Positions 52,546 to 64,000 of a DNA stretch of 64,000 bases are shown here, in pieces. The translations under genes were made by a program, and so were the position numbers. The stretch is from Bacteroidota bacterium (lineage in GTDB: Bacteria; Bacteroidota; Bacteroidia; Flavobacteriales_F; PHOS-HE28), in assembly GCA_029573495.1 (NCBI GenBank), contig JAKQEI010000246.1:1-64000 (forward strand). Reading direction: 5' to 3'. Below the pieces are notes generated by a model. It was given only the letters and a program-made list of their open reading frames with translations. It did not search any database and was not told where the DNA came from. Positions within the stretch are counted from its first letter, which is position 1, and every line of letters begins with the position of its first letter.

Positions 52546-52651
52546 CTACCCTCCGACCACCGTTCCGTGACCAGGATCAGGTTTCCAAGGCAGGGGACCT
52601 CCAGGCAGGCATCCTTTTTCAACCGCTGCCGTCTACTAGGTCAGGAATGGC

Positions 52652-52659
52652 TACCTTGA
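52652..52659 (+). promoter_or_regulatory. Possible -7 element of the sigma-factor gene
   Basis: taccttga, two mismatches to TAnnTTTG, starting 16 bases before ATG 52668, the same spacing as at the CBS gene (10481/10497). It favours 52668 as start, because the other ATG (52647) would lie upstream of it. Confidence 0.3.
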
Positions 52660-52667
52660 CCGCTGTC

Positions 52668-53321
52668 ATGCTCCAGCGACCCTCTGCTCCCCCGGCCTCC
52701 GAGCGCAGCAACCTGCGTTTGGTGCAGGACCAGGTGGTCATGGAGGCACAGGAAGCCGCCTATGGCGCACTGATCGATGGCTGCCTGAAGGAGGAGCGTC
52801 GCGCGCAGCAAAGGGTGTATGAGCTTTTCTACGGCAAGATGATGGCCGTATGTCTCCGGTACACTAAGAACGCCGACCAGGCCAAGGACATCCTCCAGGA
52901 TGGATTCATCAAGGTGTTCAAGAGCGTCAATAAGTTCAACCGGGCCGGATCATTCGAAGGGTGGATCCGACGGATCATGGTGAACACGGCGATCGACCAT
53001 TTCCGCAGGACCAAGAACTCCTACCTGCTATTGGGCGAGGAACGCAGCATCGAGGATTTCGGCGATCACGACGAGGAGGACATCCTGGCCGAGGAGAGCG
53101 GTGAGGATTACCTGGACCTGAAGCCCGCGGACATCATCAATGCCATGCAGAAATTGACCCCGGCCTACCGGACGGTATTCAACTTGTATGTGTTCGAGGA
53201 GTTGACGCACAAGGAGATAGCCGACATGCTCGGGATCAACATCGGCACCTCCAAGAGCAACCTGGCCAAGGCCAAGCACAATCTGAAGAAATTCCTATCG
53301 AAGGAGCACAAGCTCCATTAA
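52668..53321 (+). CDS. ECF-type RNA polymerase sigma factor
   Basis: 217 residues from ATG 52668; ATG 52647 would add 7 residues. Region 2 is MMAVCLRYTKNADQAKDILQ and DGFIKVFKSVNKF, with FEGWIRRIMVNTAIDHFRR at its end; region 4 is LTPAYRTVFNLYVFEELTHK then EIADMLGINIGTSKSNLAKA. Between them lies an acidic linker (EERSIEDFGDHDEEDILAEE). No region 1.1 or 3, so it is ECF class. Twelve bases after it comes the PKD membrane protein, a layout seen in many Bacteroidota; the partner probably controls it. Similar to the T9SS-linked SigP class in general form only. Confidence 0.93.
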   Translation: MLQRPSAPPASERSNLRLVQDQVVMEAQEAAYGALIDGCLKEERRAQQRVYELFYGKMMAVCLRYTKNADQAKDILQDGFIKVFKSVNKFNRAGSFEGWIRRIMVNTAIDHFRRTKNSYLLLGEERSIEDFGDHDEEDILAEESGEDYLDLKPADIINAMQKLTPAYRTVFNLYVFEELTHKEIADMLGINIGTSKSNLAKAKHNLKKFLSKEHKLH

Positions 53322-53333
53322 CGGACGAGGAAC

Positions 53334-54572
53334 ATGAGTGGACCGACGGGATTCGAACAAGCGGTGAAGGAGGCGCTCGAGCCGTACGAGGTGCCCTACA
53401 ATTCCGCTGACTGGGGCCATCTGGAGCGGGCGCTCGATGGCCGCACGGACGATGTGGCACGTGTGTCGCGCTCCGGCCTTTACGCCCTTTTGATCGGTGG
53501 ATCGCTCGCCGCGGTGAGCAGCTTCATGATCCTGACCAAACCGACCTTATCCGTGACTGGCGAGCCAGTGAGTGCCAGTACGATCATGTCACCGACGCTG
53601 ACGCCCACGCTTGGCACCGAAGCCATCAAAGAGGCCGAGGTAGCGATCCAGGAGACCGCTCCGGTGGTGGCCATGGCACCTGTGGAGACGCCGGCCAAAG
53701 TGGAGGTCAAGGAGAAGGTGTCCGTGACACCGGAGCCCGTCACGAGCACGATCTCCGCATCGGCGGTGAAACCGACGCACCCGATGAACCATGAGCCGGT
53801 CGTGAAGCCGAGCATCACGGAAGGTTGTCCTGGTTCTGTCATCGATTTCGAGGCTGAGAACGTGTCCGGTGAAGGAATGTACCTCTGGAACTTCGGGGAT
53901 GGCAGCTTCTCCAACAAACCAAGACCGAGCCATGTCTTCGCCAAATCAGGAAGCTTCGAGGTCATGTTGTCTCATTCGACCTCCGATGGTGGCGGCATTC
54001 GGAACAAGGCGGTGGCGGACCGCATCGTGATCCACGAGGCTCCGGAAGCCTCGTTCAACGTGTTGAAACAGGAATACGACAACACCGTACCCTCCATCCA
54101 TTTCGAGAACCGCAGCCTGGGTGGTCGGTCCTACCGCTGGGACTTCGGCGATGGAGGTACCAGTACAGTCGCCCACCCCGACCATATCTACAAGAAAGCG
54201 GGCGTGTATACCGTGAGCCTGGTCGTGGTGAACGGTAATGGTTGTGAGGATCACGCCGAGCGGACGGTGCGGATCGAGAACGACTACAACCTGGACGCCC
54301 CCGGGACTTTCTCCCCGAACGGCGATGGCACCGATGACGTGTTCATTCCGGAAGCATTGAAGACCCTGGGCGCACGCTTCGTGCTTACCGTCATGGAGTC
54401 CAAGACCGGAGTGGTGGTATACGAGACCAACGACCCTCAGCGGCCATGGAACGGCAAGGTCGCCAACAAAGGAGATGCCTGCTCACAGGGCGAATATGTG
54501 TGGTTGGTGGAGATGAAGGATGGGGAGAAGTTGGGAGGGACCTACACCGGTAGCATTCAATTGGTGCGTTAG
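53334..54572 (+). CDS. Single-span PKD protein with gliding-motility C-terminal domain (candidate anti-sigma/sensor)
   Basis: 412 residues. Cytosolic N-terminus (1-46) containing FEQAVKEALEPYEVPYNSAD, a conserved-looking opening seen in Bacteroidota proteins that follow ECF sigma genes; one membrane span (about 49-67, LYALLIGGSLAAVSSFMIL); a low-complexity Thr/Pro/Val stretch (70-155); two PKD domains (about 165-245, NFGDGSFSNK; and 252-335, DFGDGGTSTV) and a C-terminal gliding-motility (CHU_C/T9SS type B-like) domain (about 338-412, FSPNGDGTDDVFIPEA). There is no cleavable signal peptide, so the protein is anchored in the inner membrane and its tail domain probably stays in the periplasm. 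Role as regulator of the upstream sigma factor is inference from context. Confidence 0.88.
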   Translation: MSGPTGFEQAVKEALEPYEVPYNSADWGHLERALDGRTDDVARVSRSGLYALLIGGSLAAVSSFMILTKPTLSVTGEPVSASTIMSPTLTPTLGTEAIKEAEVAIQETAPVVAMAPVETPAKVEVKEKVSVTPEPVTSTISASAVKPTHPMNHEPVVKPSITEGCPGSVIDFEAENVSGEGMYLWNFGDGSFSNKPRPSHVFAKSGSFEVMLSHSTSDGGGIRNKAVADRIVIHEAPEASFNVLKQEYDNTVPSIHFENRSLGGRSYRWDFGDGGTSTVAHPDHIYKKAGVYTVSLVVVNGNGCEDHAERTVRIENDYNLDAPGTFSPNGDGTDDVFIPEALKTLGARFVLTVMESKTGVVVYETNDPQRPWNGKVANKGDACSQGEYVWLVEMKDGEKLGGTYTGSIQLVR

Positions 54573-54599
54573 TTCTTTCGTTGACAAAGGCCTGGACCG

Positions 54600-54625
54600 G
54601 ATCCCCCGAGCGACCTCGGGGGATC
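54600..54625 (+). terminator. Terminator of the sigma/PKD operon
   Basis: Perfect 11-bp stem (gatcccccgag / ctcgggggatc) with a 4-nt loop, followed by tatttttg. Begins 28 bases after the stop at 54572. Confidence 0.85.
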
Positions 54626-54633
54626 TATTTTTG
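54626..54633 (+). promoter_or_regulatory. -7 element overlapping the terminator tail, upstream of the first giant paralogue
   Basis: TATTTTTG, exact TAnnTTTG, is at the same time the U-tract of the terminator. A leader of roughly 85 bases would precede ATG 54725. No TTG at 17-23 bases upstream, where the hairpin is. Confidence 0.45.
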
Positions 54634-54724
54634 TGGACATAGGCAACGGACCGGTCACCGGCGCGGTCACTCGTTCAGCTGGTCAATGGTCAACTCCCAT
54701 GCGGCTATCCCAAACCGGAGAATA

Positions 54725-57700
54725 ATGGAGAAGAAGCTCTACACGCGGCTATTCCTCATCCCCCTCCTCCTACTTCTCGTTCATACGGCACAGGCGCAGC
54801 AGTTCAGCATCACCGCTGGTAGTGTGACCACCTGTGCCGGGGTTCTGGAGGATTCTGGTGGGCCCTCGGCTTCTTACGGGGACAACGAGAACTATACGGT
54901 GGTGATCTGTCCGGACAATCCAGGTGATGGGATCTCTCTTCAATGGATCGTTGCGAACCTGAGCCTTGCCGGCCCGAACAACACCCAGGACAGGCTCCTG
55001 ATCTGGGATGGGGACAACACCAGCGCGACCCCTTTGGGTGATTACACGGGGTCAGCACTGCAAGGCTTGATCGTTTCCGCCACCACCTTCAATACGACGG
55101 GATGCCTCACTGTTCGCTTCATTTCCAATGGAACGGGAACGGGAGACTTCGCTGCATCCATCACCTGCTTCACGCCATGTGAACGCCCGGTCGCTGTGGC
55201 TTCCATGAGCGAAGCCGTTCCTGCCCTGGTCTGTGTGGGAGAAGAGGTCTCCTTCGATGGAAGCGCTTCATATGCTGCGGCGGGGTTCAACATCGTCTCC
55301 TACACGTGGAACTTTGACGATGGTGCATCGGCTACCGGACCGACCTCAAGCCATGCGTTCTCCGTACCTGGCGAGTACATCGTACAACTGAACCTGTTGG
55401 ACGATAACGATTGTGTGAACTCGAACGTGGTGGACCTTCAGGTATTGGTGAGCACGACACCGTTGTTCGTGGGCACGGTACAAAGTGTGGAGACTTGTCT
55501 CGGTGCCACGGTGGACCTTGCTGCCATTGTGACACCTGTAACCTGGACCGGGATCCCGGATGCCAATTTCGGGGAGGGGGTCTTCTTACCGGATGATGTG
55601 GGTCAGCCTTTCACCTCCGACCTGACCTTCACGCAGTTCGATCCGGGTCAATCCGTACAAAGCGTGGGCGATATCCTCTCGATCTGTGTCGAGATGGAGC
55701 ACACCTACATGGGCGACCTTGTCCTCCAGGTCATTTGTCCGAACGGACAGACCATGATCTTCCATCAGCAAGGTGGTGGTGGTACCTATCTGGGCTCCCC
55801 GAATGATACGGACAGCAACCAGAACCCGATCCCAGGGGAATGCTGGGAGTACTGCTGGAGCCCGACCGCAACGAACGGCACCTGGGTGGACAACTCGAAC
55901 CAAGGCAGCCAGAATACCACTTCAGCCGGTACGCCGCCCGCGCAATCGTTGAACCCGGGGACCTACGAACCGGTGCAGCCCTTCACCAACCTGGTCGGTT
56001 GTCCGTTGAATGGTGAGTGGACCTACCAGAGCACCGATCTATGGGGTGCGGACAATGGGTTCATTTGTTCCTGGTCGATCAACTTCGACCCGAACATCAT
56101 CCCGGATGTGACCCAGTTCACACCGAACCTTGGAACGGCCACGCTGGATAGTGCTGGATGGTCTGGTCCTGAACTGACCCAGGATCCGGTGGTGCCGCTG
56201 AACGCCACGGCCACCCCTTCCGGCCCGGGGACCTACCCTTACACCTTCTTCGTAACGGATGACTTCGGTTGTTCCTACGACACCACGGTCACGATCACGA
56301 TCGACCCGCAGATCGTACTTGACGCGGGACCGGACCTCGTGCTGTGTTCCGATCCGTCGCCCATGGCAGGGGCCATCGTGGCCAACGGTCCGCCGCCCAC
56401 ATGTACGTGGGAGCTGCTCCTGTTGGAATCCTGGGGGGATGGATGGAACGGTGGTGCGAACCTTATGGTGACCATTGATGGCAACGTCACGAACTATTCG
56501 GTTCCGAGCGGTCCGGAGGAAGTTCCGATATCCTTGAGCGTGGAAACCGGCCAATCGATCGAACTGTTCTATACGGCTGGCACCGTTTTCAATAACGAGA
56601 ATTCCTTCACGCTCACCGATGACGCGGGCAATGAGGTCTACGCCTCACCGAACGGACCACCCACTGGACTGGCATACAGCGGCACTGTTGTCTGTGGTGG
56701 CGGAAGTACGCCGTTCGTGTTCGAATGGACCCCGGTAGATGGCCTGACCGACCCGAGCGATCCGGAGACGGACGTTTATGTAACTGAGCCGACGTGGTTC
56801 TACCTGTCCTCTTATCCGACCGGACATCCGGAGTGTGCGGTGATGGACAGCGTGCTGGTCAGTCCGGACCCGTCCATCGATGCCGGACTTCCTGCGTCCA
56901 TCATTCTTTGCGAGAGCGACCCGGTGATCACGATGGTGGATTCCCTCGGCGGCACTCCGGACCAGATCGGGAGCTGGACCAGTTCCATTGGCACGAACGT
57001 ACCCGGGGTCTTCGACCCGAGCATGGATCCTGCGGATGTGTATACCTACACCGTGACCAGTGGTGCGGGCTGCGTGGCCACGAGCACACTGGAGATCACC
57101 GTATTGCCGGCCGATGACCCGACATGCTGCGGGGTGGTGGATGCCGGACCGAACACATTCTCCTGCGACCTCACCACCGTTTTGGAAGCGGTAAGGGGGA
57201 ACACCGGCGTTGGTAATTGGGTGGGTCCTGTTGGCGCGGTCTTCGAAGATGCGTTCAATAACGTCACCTTGGTGACCGTGCAGCCCGGCATGGGTGGCCC
57301 GCAGATGTTCTATTGGGTGGAGAACGACGGCGCCTTCTGTGACCTGATCGACAGCGTGGAGATCGTGTTCACCGACGCGTATGCGTTCACGCCGACCATC
57401 ACCAACGCACTTTGTTTCGGCTATTGCGATGGCGGGATCACGGTGGACGTCGCTGGCGGTAATGCAGCCACCGCACTGGATTACTCGTGGTCCACTGGCG
57501 ATGCCGGCAATGGGCTGGATGCGATCAGTGGGTTGTGTGCCGGGGGTTACACCGTGACCGTGACGGATGACAATGGCTGTGCTGGAAGCTTCGACATGAT
57601 CGTGACCGAACCGGCCCTGTTGCAGGTGGATTCAGTAACCAGCACGCCGGTGACCTGTTCCGGTGATTGTGATGGTACCATCACCATACATGACGTGGCT

Positions 57701-58384
57701 GCGGTGGAGTACAGCTTCGACAACGGCGACAGTTGGGGCATTGACGCGGTGCGTACAGAGGCGTGCGAGGGTACCTGGGTCGTTCGCATCAAGGATGCGG
57801 ACGGTTGCATCGGCCTCGCGAGCGAAGAAGTCACCGGTCCACCACCCGTTGTGGCCTCGTTCATCTGGGGTCCGCAACCAGCCAACGTGGACGCACCTAC
57901 CATCACTTTCTCGAACACCTCCACCGGAGCCGACCATTTCTTCTGGAACGTGGATGAGCAGTACTCCACGACCGAACTGAACACGCTCTTCACCTTCAGC
58001 AATAAAGAACCCGGCACCTACCAGGTCTGCCTCACGGCGTACAACTACAACGAATGCGTGGATACGGTATGCAACGACATCGTGATCGACGATGTGCTCT
58101 TCACCTACATACCGAACGCGTTCACGCCGGATGGGGACGGCGAGAACGATGCGTGGTGGCCTACCGCCAACATACCCGTTCGAACGAACTACGAATTACT
58201 CGTGTTCGACCGTTGGGGACAGGTGGTCTTCAGCACCACGGATCCGTACATGGCTTGGGAAGGCAGCTTCCAGAACAGTGGGGAGGTCTTGAAGAGCGAT
58301 GTGTATGCCTACCGGCTCCTATACGGTATCGGGAACACCGAAACGAGGAAGGAGATACTCGGGCATGTGACCTTGTTGAAGTAA
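54725..58384 (+). CDS. Giant surface protein 1: CUB, PKD, P-domain, GDGW module, SprB repeats, T9SS type B tail
   Basis: 1219 residues from ATG 54725, preceded by a good Shine-Dalgarno (ggag, unusual here). Signal peptide MEKKLYTRLFLIPLLLLLVHTAQAQ. Domains: CUB (about 37-148, CAGVLEDSGGPSASYGDNEN opening), PKD (154-243), proprotein-convertase P-domain (about 296-454, MEHTYMGDLVLQVICPNG ... GADNGFICSWSINF), an unnamed GDGW module (557-657, LLESWGDGWNGGAN), Ig-like region (660-800), two SprB-like repeats (about 890-1035), a PKD-like unit (1042-1122) and the gliding-motility C-terminal domain (1128-1219, FTPDGDGENDAWW ... FDRWGQVVF). Expected to be exported by Sec then T9SS. Likely a cell-surface or matrix protein; no enzyme active site seen. 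Confidence 0.92.
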   Translation: MEKKLYTRLFLIPLLLLLVHTAQAQQFSITAGSVTTCAGVLEDSGGPSASYGDNENYTVVICPDNPGDGISLQWIVANLSLAGPNNTQDRLLIWDGDNTSATPLGDYTGSALQGLIVSATTFNTTGCLTVRFISNGTGTGDFAASITCFTPCERPVAVASMSEAVPALVCVGEEVSFDGSASYAAAGFNIVSYTWNFDDGASATGPTSSHAFSVPGEYIVQLNLLDDNDCVNSNVVDLQVLVSTTPLFVGTVQSVETCLGATVDLAAIVTPVTWTGIPDANFGEGVFLPDDVGQPFTSDLTFTQFDPGQSVQSVGDILSICVEMEHTYMGDLVLQVICPNGQTMIFHQQGGGGTYLGSPNDTDSNQNPIPGECWEYCWSPTATNGTWVDNSNQGSQNTTSAGTPPAQSLNPGTYEPVQPFTNLVGCPLNGEWTYQSTDLWGADNGFICSWSINFDPNIIPDVTQFTPNLGTATLDSAGWSGPELTQDPVVPLNATATPSGPGTYPYTFFVTDDFGCSYDTTVTITIDPQIVLDAGPDLVLCSDPSPMAGAIVANGPPPTCTWELLLLESWGDGWNGGANLMVTIDGNVTNYSVPSGPEEVPISLSVETGQSIELFYTAGTVFNNENSFTLTDDAGNEVYASPNGPPTGLAYSGTVVCGGGSTPFVFEWTPVDGLTDPSDPETDVYVTEPTWFYLSSYPTGHPECAVMDSVLVSPDPSIDAGLPASIILCESDPVITMVDSLGGTPDQIGSWTSSIGTNVPGVFDPSMDPADVYTYTVTSGAGCVATSTLEITVLPADDPTCCGVVDAGPNTFSCDLTTVLEAVRGNTGVGNWVGPVGAVFEDAFNNVTLVTVQPGMGGPQMFYWVENDGAFCDLIDSVEIVFTDAYAFTPTITNALCFGYCDGGITVDVAGGNAATALDYSWSTGDAGNGLDAISGLCAGGYTVTVTDDNGCAGSFDMIVTEPALLQVDSVTSTPVTCSGDCDGTITIHDVAAVEYSFDNGDSWGIDAVRTEACEGTWVVRIKDADGCIGLASEEVTGPPPVVASFIWGPQPANVDAPTITFSNTSTGADHFFWNVDEQYSTTELNTLFTFSNKEPGTYQVCLTAYNYNECVDTVCNDIVIDDVLFTYIPNAFTPDGDGENDAWWPTANIPVRTNYELLVFDRWGQVVFSTTDPYMAWEGSFQNSGEVLKSDVYAYRLLYGIGNTETRKEILGHVTLLK

Positions 58385-58393
58385 GGAACGGCA

Positions 58394-61300
58394 GTGGGAT
58401 CGAACAAAGTCAAACGTGCGTTTCCCGCTGCTGGACCGGAGGTCGTTGAAGGACCCTCCATTCCTGATGTGGTCCGGAAACCGCTGCTGGCTTGCGTATT
58501 AAGCGTCGCATGTGGCTGTGCGCTGTTCGCCCAGCCAACGATCCATCCGATCACCGAAGGTTCGATCATCGCTTGTACCGGTGGTTTCGTGGGCAGTGGA
58601 GGAGTCGTTGGCGGATACGAGGACAATGAGGACTACACCGCGACGATCTGCCCGGACCAACCGGGACAGGGGATCTTCCTGACGTTCATTTCATTCGATC
58701 TGAGCCAGGACGGCGCTGCACCGTACGACCAGATGTTCATCTACAACGGGTCGGACACGAACGCCCCATTGATCGGAACCTACACGGACGGGGAGCTCCA
58801 GGGCCAGATCGTCGCCACGACACCGGACAACCCGACAGGCTGCCTCACGGTGCGGTTCACCTCGAACGCGATCGGGACCGGGACCTTCAGCGCCGCCATC
58901 TCCTGCGGAACACCGTGTTGGCCACCTGTACCGGACGCGGTGATCGTTGGTGAAACCTTGCCGGCCAAGGTGTGCATAGGGGAACCCGTGCAGTTCGATG
59001 CAAGCGCCTCCCAACCTCACCCAGGCCGCACCATCGTTGAATATTCCTGGGACATGTTCGATGGCACGGTGTTGAACGGGGCGGCCGTGGAACACGCGTT
59101 CGATGAACCTGGACAATACCTGGTATCGCTTACGGTGACCGATGATCTGGGTTGTACCAACACGCAGCAGACCACGGTGGCCGTATGGGTGGGCACGGAA
59201 CCGCTCTTCTTCGGCACAACGGGGGATACCACCGTCTGCGCGAATGGGACGATCCCATTGCAGGGCCAAACCGAAGCGGTCACATGGAACCAATTGCCCG
59301 TGGTCGACCTCGGTGGCGAGATCGCCTTACCGGACGAGCAGGGGGTACTCTTCACGAGTGAGATCGAGTTCTCCATCTTCCCACCAGGTGCGACGGTCCT
59401 GACGCCTTCGGATCTGAGCACTTTCTGCGTGAGCATGGAGCATTCCTTCATTGGGGACTTCGTGCTAAGCTTGACCTGCCCGAATGGACAGAACGTGGTG
59501 ATGCACCAGCAAGGTGGTGGGGGGACCTACGTTGGGGACGCCAGCGATGCGACGGAAGGAATTCCGGGTGAATGCTGGGATTACTGTTTCAGCAACTCGG
59601 CCACTTGGGGTACGTGGGTGGAAAGTTCCGCGAACGGAGCGACCCCACACGTGATGCCCGCGCCCTCCACACCTGGAGCACAAACGTTGATACCAGGCAC
59701 CTACACGCCGATAGACCCCTTCTCCGACTTCATCGGATGTCCGCTCAATGGGATCTGGACGCTGAACTACATGGACAACTGGGGAGCAGATGACGGCACG
59801 ATGTGCAGTTGGTCCATCAGTTTCGACCCGGCGCTCTACCCGGACCTGGTGGAATTCACACCGGTGATCGGTACGACCGCGGATAGCGTGTGGTGGGAAG
59901 GGGACGACCTGACCACGAACGCCGGCACACCCGCCCAAGCCAGCGCCACCCCGACGGAGACAGGCGTTCATCCGTACACCTTCCACGTGATCGACGATTT
60001 CGGTTGCGAGCACGACACCACCATCAACATCACCGTGACCCCGCCGCCGGTGGTGGACGTCACCTCGACCGAAGGCATCTGCACCGAACCATCCCAGCTG
60101 CTGGCCTCCGTCGTCGCCGATCCACCTCCTCCCCTGCCGTGCACCTACAGCCTCATCTTGAACGACTCCTTTGGCGATGGTTGGGCTGGCGGAGCGCATG
60201 TGACGATCACCATCAATGGCCAGGCGACTGACTACACGCTGGCATCGGGCGCTACCATCACCATACCGATCGAGGTCCCGTTCGGCACACCGTTCCAGGT
60301 GAACTACACGGCTGGTACGTTGTGGAACGGTGAGAACTCCTTCCAACTGATCTCTCCCGCCGGCACCCTCATCTACTCCTCCCCGAACGGGCCTTTGTCG
60401 GGCAATGTCTGGAACGGTGCGGGGGTATGCGCGATCGTTTCCCCCGTGACCTACATATGGACGCCGAACAACGCCGTTTCCGTGAACAACATCCCGAACC
60501 CGACCGCGACGATCAGCGCGCCGACGTTCATCACGGTGGCCATCCACCCGGTCGGCCAACCCTGGTGTACCACACAGGACACGATCACAGTGGAACCGCC
60601 GTCGGTCCTGGAGAACGACAGCTTGATCACGGATGTGCTGTGCTTCGGCGGGACCGGTAGCGCGGAGATCACGACCACCGGTCTCGGCGGGCCTTGGAAC
60701 TACCGCTGGACGGACGCTGCGAACAGCGTCATCAGGGAAGTGGGTCCGTTGAACGGAGACCTTTTGACCGCACCAGCGGGCGACTACAGTGTGGTCGTGA
60801 CCGAAGGCCCGAACGGGAACGGATGCTCGGACACGGTGCGGGTCACCATCACGGAACCTCCGCTCCTCGTCTGGTCCCTTGTTCCGATGGACACGACCAT
60901 TTGTGTGGATGGGGTGGCCGTGCTGGCCGCAGAGACCGAGGGCGGGACAGCACCGGTAACCTATGTGTGGGACCAGGGTCTGGTCGGCTCAGGTCCGCAT
61001 CAGGTCAGCCCTTCCGACAGCACGGTCTATACCGTCCAGGCGGTGGACGCACATGATTGCATCACCTCCACGGTGACGCTGCTCGTGGGAGTGCTGGATT
61101 CCCTGCACTATGATCCGCTCGTCGACTTCGAGCAGTGCAGCGGCGTGCCGTTCGATCTGGAGGTGTCGAACCTTGTCGGTGGCGATGGCAACTATGGGTA
61201 TGGCTGGAGCTCCGGCAACTCCGAAACCGCACTCCTGACGGACTCCCTTGTCGACGATGCCACCTACTGCGTGACCGTCTCGGACGGGTGCGAAACGCCA

Positions 61301-62125
61301 CCCATCACCTCATGTACGGAGATCACGGTGTTGCATACCCCTGCGTTCGAATTGACCATGGATACGGTCCTGGGTTGTCGACCCTTCGAAGTGGCCTTCG
61401 CATTGCGCGATACCACCAATGGTGCCCAGGTCGCATGGCGCTTCGGTGAGGGCGAGTCCGCGATCGCTGGTCCGCTGTTGTCCCATATCTACGACCGATC
61501 AGGCACCTTCGATGTGAGCACCGAGGTCACCTGGCCGAACGGATGTGTCACCGACACTAGCTGGATCGACCTGATCACGGTGATACCGGTACCGAAGCCG
61601 GAGTTCTCCTATTCCCCTGAACCGCTCACGATCTTCGAACCGCACGCACGATTCACCGAACTGGCGGGCCCGAACGAGGTGGGATATGCATGGGACTTCT
61701 TCGATCTGGGGGTCTCGGACGAACCCGATCCGGAGGTCACGTTCTCGAACATCGTTGGTGACCTTTACCCGGTGCAACTGGTGGTGTGGAATGAACTGGG
61801 CTGTTCGGATACGTTGTTGCGGTACGTCCCTGTCGAGGATGCCTTCCTGATCCATGCACCGAACAGCTTCACCCCGAACGGGGATGACCTGAACGAGGAA
61901 TTCAGGATCCTGGGCAATGACCTTTCGCGTGACGAGTTCACGCTGGACATATTCGACCGTTGGGGGCACGTTGTGTTCAGTGCCACAAGCCCGGAGCTTG
62001 GCTGGGACGGCAAGGTGAATGGCACTGTGGCGGAAGTGGGTGTTTACGTCTGGCGTCTGAAGGCTCGCTCTTTGCAGACCCTGGAGAAGCATATCCTTTT
62101 CGGCCACGTGAGCCTGTTGCGCTGA
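58394..62125 (+). CDS. Giant surface protein 2: paralogue of protein 1
   Basis: 1243 residues, starting 9 bases after protein 1, so probably cotranscribed. The N-terminal 30 residues before the hydrophobic segment (PLLACVLSVACGCALFAQ) are long for a signal peptide; a GTG at 58469 is an alternative start. Same domain order: CUB (about 60-172), PKD (178-265), P-domain (about 320-478), GDGW module (582-680, LNDSFGDGWAGGAH), several Ig/SprB-like repeats (690-985), PKD (990-1065 and 1070-1147), and the gliding-motility C-terminal domain (1150-1243, NSFTPNGDDLNEEFRI ... FDRWGHVVFS). Differs mainly in the middle repeats. T9SS type B cargo. Confidence 0.91.
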   Translation: MGSNKVKRAFPAAGPEVVEGPSIPDVVRKPLLACVLSVACGCALFAQPTIHPITEGSIIACTGGFVGSGGVVGGYEDNEDYTATICPDQPGQGIFLTFISFDLSQDGAAPYDQMFIYNGSDTNAPLIGTYTDGELQGQIVATTPDNPTGCLTVRFTSNAIGTGTFSAAISCGTPCWPPVPDAVIVGETLPAKVCIGEPVQFDASASQPHPGRTIVEYSWDMFDGTVLNGAAVEHAFDEPGQYLVSLTVTDDLGCTNTQQTTVAVWVGTEPLFFGTTGDTTVCANGTIPLQGQTEAVTWNQLPVVDLGGEIALPDEQGVLFTSEIEFSIFPPGATVLTPSDLSTFCVSMEHSFIGDFVLSLTCPNGQNVVMHQQGGGGTYVGDASDATEGIPGECWDYCFSNSATWGTWVESSANGATPHVMPAPSTPGAQTLIPGTYTPIDPFSDFIGCPLNGIWTLNYMDNWGADDGTMCSWSISFDPALYPDLVEFTPVIGTTADSVWWEGDDLTTNAGTPAQASATPTETGVHPYTFHVIDDFGCEHDTTINITVTPPPVVDVTSTEGICTEPSQLLASVVADPPPPLPCTYSLILNDSFGDGWAGGAHVTITINGQATDYTLASGATITIPIEVPFGTPFQVNYTAGTLWNGENSFQLISPAGTLIYSSPNGPLSGNVWNGAGVCAIVSPVTYIWTPNNAVSVNNIPNPTATISAPTFITVAIHPVGQPWCTTQDTITVEPPSVLENDSLITDVLCFGGTGSAEITTTGLGGPWNYRWTDAANSVIREVGPLNGDLLTAPAGDYSVVVTEGPNGNGCSDTVRVTITEPPLLVWSLVPMDTTICVDGVAVLAAETEGGTAPVTYVWDQGLVGSGPHQVSPSDSTVYTVQAVDAHDCITSTVTLLVGVLDSLHYDPLVDFEQCSGVPFDLEVSNLVGGDGNYGYGWSSGNSETALLTDSLVDDATYCVTVSDGCETPPITSCTEITVLHTPAFELTMDTVLGCRPFEVAFALRDTTNGAQVAWRFGEGESAIAGPLLSHIYDRSGTFDVSTEVTWPNGCVTDTSWIDLITVIPVPKPEFSYSPEPLTIFEPHARFTELAGPNEVGYAWDFFDLGVSDEPDPEVTFSNIVGDLYPVQLVVWNELGCSDTLLRYVPVEDAFLIHAPNSFTPNGDDLNEEFRILGNDLSRDEFTLDIFDRWGHVVFSATSPELGWDGKVNGTVAEVGVYVWRLKARSLQTLEKHILFGHVSLLR

Positions 62126-62263: not shown

Positions 62264-64000
62264 ATGGGAGAACGATACGCCTGGACCTGCCACCCGAGGT
62301 CGAAGGGACCCGTTCAACCGCGAACCTGGATCGTGGTCCTGGTGGTCGCCGTGTGGTGGGCAGCCATGAACCCTTCGCGTTCTTTCGGCCAGGCCTTCCC
62401 CATCTTCAACGGTTCGGTGAACACCTGTGTCGGTGCTTTCCTGGATAGTGGCGGCGAGGGGGGCTCGGGCTACGGGAACAACGAGAACTTCACCTACACG
62501 ATCTGCCCGGACAACCCGAACGATGCGGTATCGCTGAACTTCATCACCTTCCAACTTGACAATACTGGTCCCGGGCCCACGGACCAGATGACCATCTACG
62601 ACGGGAACAGTACGGCAGCTCCTTCGTTGGGCACCTATGCTGGCAATACCCTGGAAGGATATGTCGTCAACGCATCCCCGTTGAACACGTCCGGCTGCCT
62701 GACGGTCGTTTTCCGATCCAACGCCGCGGGCACCGGCATCTTCGCAGCGAGCATCTCCTGTTACACGCCATGTCAACGCCCCACTGCGGTCGCTGCGATG
62801 AGCGAGGCCGCGCCCGCGATGGTCTGTCCGGGCGAAGTGGTCTCTTTCAACAGTGCGGGATCATTCGCTGCTCCGGGCTTTTCCATAGCCAACCGGCGAT
62901 GGGAATGGGGAGATGGGACCGTGACCGATCCAGCCCCTGTTAACGCCACGCACGCCTATGCGCAACCAGGCTATTACCAGGCCCAGTTGTACCTGCTGGA
63001 CGACAATGGCTGCGCCAGTACCAACCGGGTGGACCTTGAGGTCCTGGTGGGAACTGAGCCGACCTTCAATGGAACGGGCGGTGATGTGCTAGGCTGTGTA
63101 GGCGAGATCCTCTGCCTCGATGCCGTGGTGAACCCGGTCACCTTCAACGAGCTTCCCTCGGGCGACTTAGGGAATGGTGTGTTCCTCGCGGATGAAGTGG
63201 GTTCGTGTTTCACGGCGGAGATCGAGTTCACACAATTCGACCCAGGACAAACATTGAACTCCATCGCGGACCTGTTCTCCATCTGCATGAACATGGAGCA
63301 CTCCTTCATTGGGGACCTGGTCGTTCGCATCATCAGCCCGACCGGACAAACGGTGACGATGCATCAGCAGGGCGGTGGGGGCACCTTCCTAGGTATACCG
63401 GTCGACAATGACGCACAACCGAATGCCCAGGGCACATGTTGGCAGTATTGTTTCAGCCCCACGGCGACCAATGGTACCTGGGTGGACAATGCGGGAGGCA
63501 CGCTTCCATCCGGGACGTACGAAAGCCTCAACAACCTGAGCGGCCTGTTGGGTTCGCAGTTGAACGGTATCTGGCAATTGCAGATCTGCGACCTGTGGGC
63601 ATCGGACAACGGTTTCGTGTGTGACTGGAACATCAGCTTCGATCCGGACCTCTTCCCCGATCTGGTGGAGTTCACACCAGTGTATGGCACCGATTGTGAC
63701 AGCAGTAGTTGGTCAGGTCCGAACATCTCCTCGACCTCTTCCACCTGCCAGGGGATATGCATCACGCCGCCGAGCACCGGGGTATTCCCCTACACCTACA
63801 CTGTCACCGACAACTTCGGATGTACTTACGACACCACGTTGTCGATCACGGTGATCCCGCCGGCGATCATCAATGCCGGGGCTGACGTCTCCACGTGTGA
63901 TACACCTGTTCCGCTGAACGCGACGATCATATCAGGCGGATTCCCGTCACCCTGCAACTATCAGCTCATTCTGAATGATTCTTTCGGGGATGGGTGGACG
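62264..64000 (+). CDS. Giant surface protein 3 (partial, 3' end outside window)
   Basis: The frame from ATG 62264 is open to base 64000, giving the first 579 residues. The N-terminus has a long basic leader then a hydrophobic stretch (TWIVVLVVAVWWAAMNP) and SFGQA, read as signal peptide. The CUB domain (from about 55, CVGAFLDSGGEGGSGYGNNE), PKD (GDGTVTDPAPVN), P-domain (MEHSFIGDLVVRIISPTGQT and WASDNGFVCDWNISF) and the beginning of the GDGW module (LILNDSFGDGWT at the very end) follow in the same order as in proteins 1 and 2. Gap to protein 2 is 138 bases with no terminator; a weak TTG/taccttat pair sits at about 62189-62220. Confidence 0.88.
   Translation, partial: MGERYAWTCHPRSKGPVQPRTWIVVLVVAVWWAAMNPSRSFGQAFPIFNGSVNTCVGAFLDSGGEGGSGYGNNENFTYTICPDNPNDAVSLNFITFQLDNTGPGPTDQMTIYDGNSTAAPSLGTYAGNTLEGYVVNASPLNTSGCLTVVFRSNAAGTGIFAASISCYTPCQRPTAVAAMSEAAPAMVCPGEVVSFNSAGSFAAPGFSIANRRWEWGDGTVTDPAPVNATHAYAQPGYYQAQLYLLDDNGCASTNRVDLEVLVGTEPTFNGTGGDVLGCVGEILCLDAVVNPVTFNELPSGDLGNGVFLADEVGSCFTAEIEFTQFDPGQTLNSIADLFSICMNMEHSFIGDLVVRIISPTGQTVTMHQQGGGGTFLGIPVDNDAQPNAQGTCWQYCFSPTATNGTWVDNAGGTLPSGTYESLNNLSGLLGSQLNGIWQLQICDLWASDNGFVCDWNISFDPDLFPDLVEFTPVYGTDCDSSSWSGPNISSTSSTCQGICITPPSTGVFPYTYTVTDNFGCTYDTTLSITVIPPAIINAGADVSTCDTPVPLNATIISGGFPSPCNYQLILNDSFGDGWT

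Follow-up and report, generated by a model that had tools for sequence, protein, structure and literature searches.

How do Bacteroidota other than Porphyromonas gingivalis adjust the synthesis of giant surface proteins to what their type IX secretion system (T9SS) can handle? In P. gingivalis, the CTD protein PorA feeds the PorXY-SigP system, and the sigma gene is autoregulated (PMC7712824). The window analyzed here (64,000 nucleotides, the start of contig JAKQEI010000246.1 from a Bacteroidota bacterium) contains an ECF sigma factor gene followed by a gene for a membrane protein with a C-terminal CHU_C domain, and giant cargo genes lie further downstream. What might such a domain do on an apparent anti-sigma factor, and does the pair control its neighbours?

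An ECF sigma factor gene and a membrane-anchored partner

The operon comprises the following features.

52608..52635, plus strand: ECF-type promoter GGCATCC-N15-CGTCTA of the sigma/anti-sigma operon (conserved motif, top window match)
52647..53321, plus strand: ECF sigma factor gene, 224 aa (Pfam Sigma70_r2/r4_2, TIGR02937)
53334..54572, plus strand: putative transmembrane anti-sigma factor, 412 aa, 12-nt gap after the sigma gene
53352..53438, plus strand: cytosolic helix-turn-helix unit of 29 residues (7-35), proposed sigma-binding element (alignment, unit profile)
53472..53537, plus strand: transmembrane helix, residues 47-68 (hydropathy and model)
53547..53786, plus strand: predicted periplasmic linker, variable and of low complexity, residues 72-151 (alignment; pLDDT below 50)
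53790..54281, plus strand: two PKD domains, residues 153-316 (Pfam PKD_4; Z of 13 to PDB PKD domains for the second)
54288..54569, plus strand: CHU_C domain without RWG motif, residues 319-412 (Pfam PF13585, 40.9 bits)

The sigma gene product matched Pfam Sigma70_r2 (1.7e-16) and Sigma70_r4_2 (1.2e-14). With only sigma70 regions 2 and 4 (residues 51-116 and 156-203 of 217) in about 200 residues, it falls into the ECF group (group 4). This numbering refers to a possible alternative start at 52668 (217 aa); the in-frame ATG at 52647 is conserved in relatives. The 12-base gap to the membrane protein gene, described in an earlier note on this DNA, was confirmed.

In the 412-residue protein, Pfam recognized two PKD_4 domains (6e-27 for the protein) and a CHU_C domain at residues 322-410 (40.9 bits, cut-off 27). 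The NCBIfam type B sorting model TIGR04131 scored 22.8, below its cut-off of 35, indicating that the CHU_C tail is divergent. The protein has one hydrophobic segment (best window from residue 49) and an N-terminus that is not hydrophobic; in each relative examined, a single hydrophobic segment was found at the same place, behind 42-52 residues. A single span with cytosolic N-terminus and periplasmic C-terminus is therefore predicted. An AlphaFold2 model built on an alignment of 34 relatives, which replaced a poor alignment-free fold (pLDDT 38), has a helix-turn-helix at residues 6-34, a transmembrane helix at 47-68, a disordered linker at 72-151, two PKD domains and a CHU_C sandwich, with pLDDT mostly above 85 from residue 161 on. 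Pfam, hydropathy and the model thus agree with the earlier picture of a short cytosolic N-terminus, one span, two PKD domains and a C-terminal CHU_C domain, the topology being a prediction.

Within the N-terminal unit, F7, L15, E19, V20, P21, Y22, N23, S24, D26 and W27 are invariant in the 34 relatives, and a profile of the 29-residue unit gave one match in the window protein (57.8 bits). Known anti-sigma families such as FecR did not match in Pfam or NCBIfam up to E 1, and no FecR or STN domain was found in the protein with Pfam. Sequence searches of the PDB gave no solved structure related to the CHU_C domain or to the SprF neighbour described below. Fold searches with the model returned mostly PKD and other Ig-like domains, with an Aureispira grappling-hook protein at the top of the Foldseek list, and did not resolve a relative of the CHU_C domain.

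Conservation of the pair and of its promoter

The N-terminal 169 residues were present in 42 of 58 relatives searched (E<=1), including nearly all genomes of the genus. All relatives that carry names are Flavobacteriales or Bacteroidetes/Bacteroidota assembled from metagenomes. In each of the 29 genus loci that were read, an ECF sigma gene immediately precedes the gene, which retains PKD and CHU_C (a contig end truncates one locus). Given this distribution and invariable adjacency, the pairing is not due to chance.

The motif GGCA[TA]CC-N15-CGTCT was found upstream of the sigma gene in 29/29 genus loci, suggesting that the operon may be autoregulated. In the window, the copy at 52608..52635 was the best-scoring match of the promoter scan (26 bits). 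A similar pattern occurred 97 times among the matches listed for 45 genus genomes, compared with 2 for the reversed control. The genome of the window itself had two matches, the sigma promoter and a site before the gene of a 257-residue protein with a type A sorting domain (Por_Secre_tail). This other strong site (L370, 2344-3394) is syntenic in relatives, and the 257-residue gene recurs behind such sites in many of them, in some beside a TraB/GumN-like gene. TraB/GumN-like genes, a family named from sequence only, also lie behind the same motif in several relatives (L247, L257, L300-L303). Other ECF factors could use the motif as well.

A wider family in Bacteroidia

A profile of the N-terminal region matched in 164 of 395 Bacteroidia genomes (E<=0.01), some of the matches being weak. 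Sixty of the better matches (E below about 1e-6) were taken with their flanks as a survey set. An ECF sigma gene was directly upstream on the same strand in all 60 loci, often with overlapping frames, which strengthens the earlier reading of a sigma/anti-sigma pair. The 29-residue cytosolic helix-turn-helix would then define a wider, putative anti-sigma family in Bacteroidia.

Behind the common N-terminus, three main architectures were found. Type A anti-sigmas (35 loci; 12 families besides that of the window, 13 with it) carry CHU_C, nearly always together with PKD. The survey for pair and cargo that the earlier note had proposed thus recovered the pair in 60/60 Bacteroidia loci and a CHU_C or PKD gene next to it in 18 of the 35 CHU_C-type loci. 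Type B anti-sigmas are 20 short proteins without CHU_C, and a PorP/SprF-like gene is next in 14 of these loci; two such neighbours were run against Pfam and matched at 3e-63 and 2e-62. In type C (one family), the anti-sigma chain itself ends in a PorP_SprF domain (Pfam 2.8e-23 and 1.9e-19), and a short CHU_C protein with a lipoprotein-like start is encoded immediately behind. A few family members carry other barrels, a generic outer-membrane barrel in the case of L210 and of C143 from the window's own genome. Architectures cluster by family, and independent origins are fewer than the locus counts. The link of the periplasmic part to the T9SS, surmised in the earlier note, is supported by CHU_C fusions in 13 families, a PorP/SprF fusion in one further family, and a PorP/SprF neighbour combined with an SprF-like peptide (see below) in 3 families.

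Loci of the window type have no PorP/SprF neighbour. PorP/SprF proteins were present in 387 of the 395 sampled genomes, which makes their mere co-occurrence uninformative; the genome of the window encodes SprA and 15 PorP/SprF genes.

By profile, type C proteins contain the 29-residue unit 4-5 times in tandem (the fifth call in L191 is spurious), and L210 is weakly repeated. Four to five tandem copies of the proposed sigma-binding unit were seen in L183, L191 and L212, the latter two fused to PorP/SprF and L183 interrupted by N. Such arrays suggest that one anti-sigma factor could bind several sigma molecules.

The window's own genome (G000) has further loci of this kind. On C159 (L066, 2080-5817), there is another sigma/anti-sigma pair; its anti-sigma combines a CHU_C domain without RWG with an N-terminal unit that is weakly repeated, and an 879-residue CHU_C cargo gene follows. 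Two more ECF sigma genes (L067 and L068, on C83 and C143) are each followed by a putative single-span partner; the one on C143 has a weak match to an outer-membrane beta-barrel, the one on C83 none in Pfam.

The RWG motif is absent from anti-sigma CHU_C domains and usual in cargo ones

The C-terminal domain had been noted earlier as one otherwise found on exported type B cargo. The assignment to CHU_C holds (40.9 bits), but the domain is not an ordinary cargo tail, as RWG is absent from every anti-sigma examined. At the position where cargo CHU_C domains read FDRWG or FNRWG, the window protein reads MESKTG. A search of its own genome yielded 50 CHU_C matches. Among those read, almost every domain has RWG or a variant near to it; it was lacking only in the window anti-sigma, the second anti-sigma on C159, a lipoprotein-like protein on C32 and two divergent domains. 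RWG was found in none of the anti-sigmas (0/28 full-length genus orthologues, 0/33 named metagenome-assembled relatives and 0/35 type A proteins of the survey) and in 26 of 32 neighbouring CHU_C proteins. The six neighbours without it were three CHU_C proteins of type C loci, one protein with NRHG and two divergent domains. The lipoprotein-like protein on C32 (L122, G000 C32:22403-22576; 185 residues) resembles the CHU_C partner of type C.

We infer that RWG may mark exported CHU_C domains, which is not a published rule. Since the anti-sigma domains do without it while nearly all exported ones have it, the anti-sigma CHU_C domain looks like a retained sensor and not like an export tag.

An SprF-like peptide in type B anti-sigmas

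The periplasmic part of 16 of the 20 type B anti-sigmas contains the motif FGD[MQ][IL]D, in many cases with a KGF/KGI-like stretch behind it, and two more have clear variants. A close form was present in 14 of 16 SprF matches of the survey loci, compared with only 1 of 689 other ORFs in these loci as a control. Local alignments between anti-sigma and SprF scored above 200 shuffles in most pairs. Among 33 SprF proteins read from five genomes, only 5 had the motif, and two of these five were sigma-linked. In SprF, the peptide sits in an apparent long loop that could be extracellular, where a periplasmic mimic would not reach it.

A terminator separates the pair from the giant cargo genes

The region behind the anti-sigma gene contains the following features.

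54599..54633, plus strand: intrinsic terminator behind the anti-sigma gene (12-bp stem and T run)
54642..54669, plus strand: degenerate, weak ECF-like element GGCAACG-N16-GGTCA upstream of cargo 1 (highest score behind the anti-sigma gene; p=0.37)
54725..58384, plus strand: giant T9SS type B cargo 1 (PKD, P-domain, CHU_C with DRWG)
58394..62125, plus strand: giant T9SS type B cargo 2 (three PKD, P-domain, CHU_C with DRWG)
62264..64000, plus strand: 5' part of giant cargo-like gene 3, which continues beyond the window (CUB-like, PKD, P-domain)

Three giant T9SS cargo genes had been reported here. Two of them do end in CHU_C, but the third can only be called cargo-like, as its end lies past the window (the contig ends at 65169). 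Many genus orthologues have similar hairpins behind the anti-sigma gene, according to sequences read by eye. A TAnnTTTG element behind the gene was considered as a housekeeping promoter and rejected, since its position is that of the terminator's T run.

The earlier suggestion that the pair regulates the adjacent cargo genes did not hold up for this genome. A terminator intervenes, and the window scan found no sigma-type promoter before the cargo genes, so that their control by the sigma factor is not supported in this genome; sigma-type promoters lie elsewhere, before the sigma gene and before the type A cargo gene. The idea that the cargo genes share the sigma promoter was likewise dropped for this genome (p=0.37 for the site, and a scan that was empty before them). 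Among the 10 closest relatives, 6 have an ECF-like site with a spacer of 16 ahead of the following gene (p 0.003-0.027, uncorrected); elsewhere in the genus it is mostly missing.

Discussion

In our judgment, the locus probably encodes an autoregulated ECF sigma/transmembrane anti-sigma system that takes its input from the CHU_C-PorP/SprF (type B) branch of the T9SS. The 29-residue cytosolic helix-turn-helix would hold the sigma factor, a role to which the observed adjacency and conservation point, and the membrane helix and flexible linker are predicted to place the PKD-PKD-CHU_C part in the periplasm. Presumably kept in the cell, the CHU_C domain without RWG may engage the same partner as cargo CHU_C domains. 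The pattern of fusions and neighbours, together with the published binding of type B cargo by PorP and SprF (PMC9143113), makes a PorP/SprF-type outer-membrane barrel the most likely candidate. A change in barrel or cargo occupancy would then free or destabilise the anti-sigma, probably by regulated proteolysis, and the freed sigma factor would act at its own promoter, which is evident as a sequence, and at a few others. The working mode would be like that of FecI-FecR-FecA, with a T9SS partner in place of the TonB receptor. On the strength of three reports taken together (PMC9143113, PMC7712824, PMC11637429), cell-surface signalling in a T9SS form is the most likely reading.

The known systems each share a part of this arrangement. 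PorX/PorY-SigP with PorA also couples an ECF sigma factor to the T9SS and has an autoregulated sigma gene. However, in P. gingivalis SigP is activated by PorX/PorY, and the CTD that interacts with PorV sits on PorA, a surface protein of its own; here a one-component transmembrane anti-sigma itself contains the CHU_C domain. FecI-FecR-FecA and FoxI-FoxR-FoxA combine an ECF sigma factor, a single-span anti-sigma and an outer-membrane barrel, and FoxR-type anti-sigmas carry a domain homologous to the signalling domain of the outer-membrane partner (PMC11637429). Their outer-membrane barrel is a TonB receptor that has an STN domain, and FecR-type signalling includes site-1/site-2 proteolysis of the anti-sigma. 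The corresponding pieces here are CHU_C and PorP/SprF, and neither FecR nor STN was detected in the protein. PorP/SprF with type B CTD cargo (PG1035, SprB) involves the same two domain families, but as parts for secretion and anchoring, and PMC9143113 reports no regulatory role. The SM6 promoters of Flavobacterium psychrophilum are predicted to form one ECF regulon, with T9SS genes as well as an ECF sigma/anti-sigma pair among its members (PMC9723704); the likeness lies in this predicted regulon, and the SM6 sigma factor is not known to be related to that in the window.

The pair could instead be an ordinary envelope-stress system. Its periplasmic domains would then be generic Ig-like ligand binders taken over from genes that are common in the genome, and its signal would be unrelated to secretion. 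With 50 CHU_C matches in this genome, CHU_C and PKD domains are indeed so abundant that chance recruitment would be easy, and the generic barrels of L210 and C143 fit such a history. Yet each of the three main architectures involves CHU_C or PorP/SprF, which are known to bind each other (PMC9143113), and the anti-sigma CHU_C domain has been kept while being consistently altered at RWG. We therefore regard the envelope-stress explanation as unlikely.

The original model of the earlier note has the CHU_C/PKD arm monitor the giant proteins encoded next door, with their genes under control of the sigma factor. It gains from the giant CHU_C/PKD genes behind the pair in large parts of the genus and at half of the remaining CHU_C-type loci, and from the ECF-like sites of the closest relatives. 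Against it stand the terminator, the weak site in the window, the empty scan and the absence of the site from most of the remaining genus, which leave this model quite improbable. Least credible is a secretion accessory that is anchored in the membrane and merely co-transcribed with the sigma factor. Such a protein would explain why Pfam and NCBIfam recognize no anti-sigma domain, but hardly the adjacency to a sigma gene in 60/60 loci with often overlapping frames, or a short conserved unit that is common to otherwise entirely different proteins and repeated 4-5 times in some.

Input from the type B branch of the T9SS thus remains our preferred reading. More tentatively, and with some doubt, we propose a new class of trans-envelope ECF signalling across Bacteroidia: by means of a decoy of a T9SS partner, the anti-sigma would report occupancy of the type B route for secretion and anchoring to transcription. 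The putative decoy would take the form of a CHU_C domain without RWG, a fused PorP/SprF barrel or an SprF-like peptide. In the open-access literature searched, we found no paper describing this architecture, although it may be described elsewhere.

For the matching of giant surface protein synthesis to T9SS capacity, the fusions name likely sensor parts and partners, so that removing a few genes would put the question to the test. From the RWG contrast comes a simple, testable hypothesis on what may separate exported from retained CHU_C domains.
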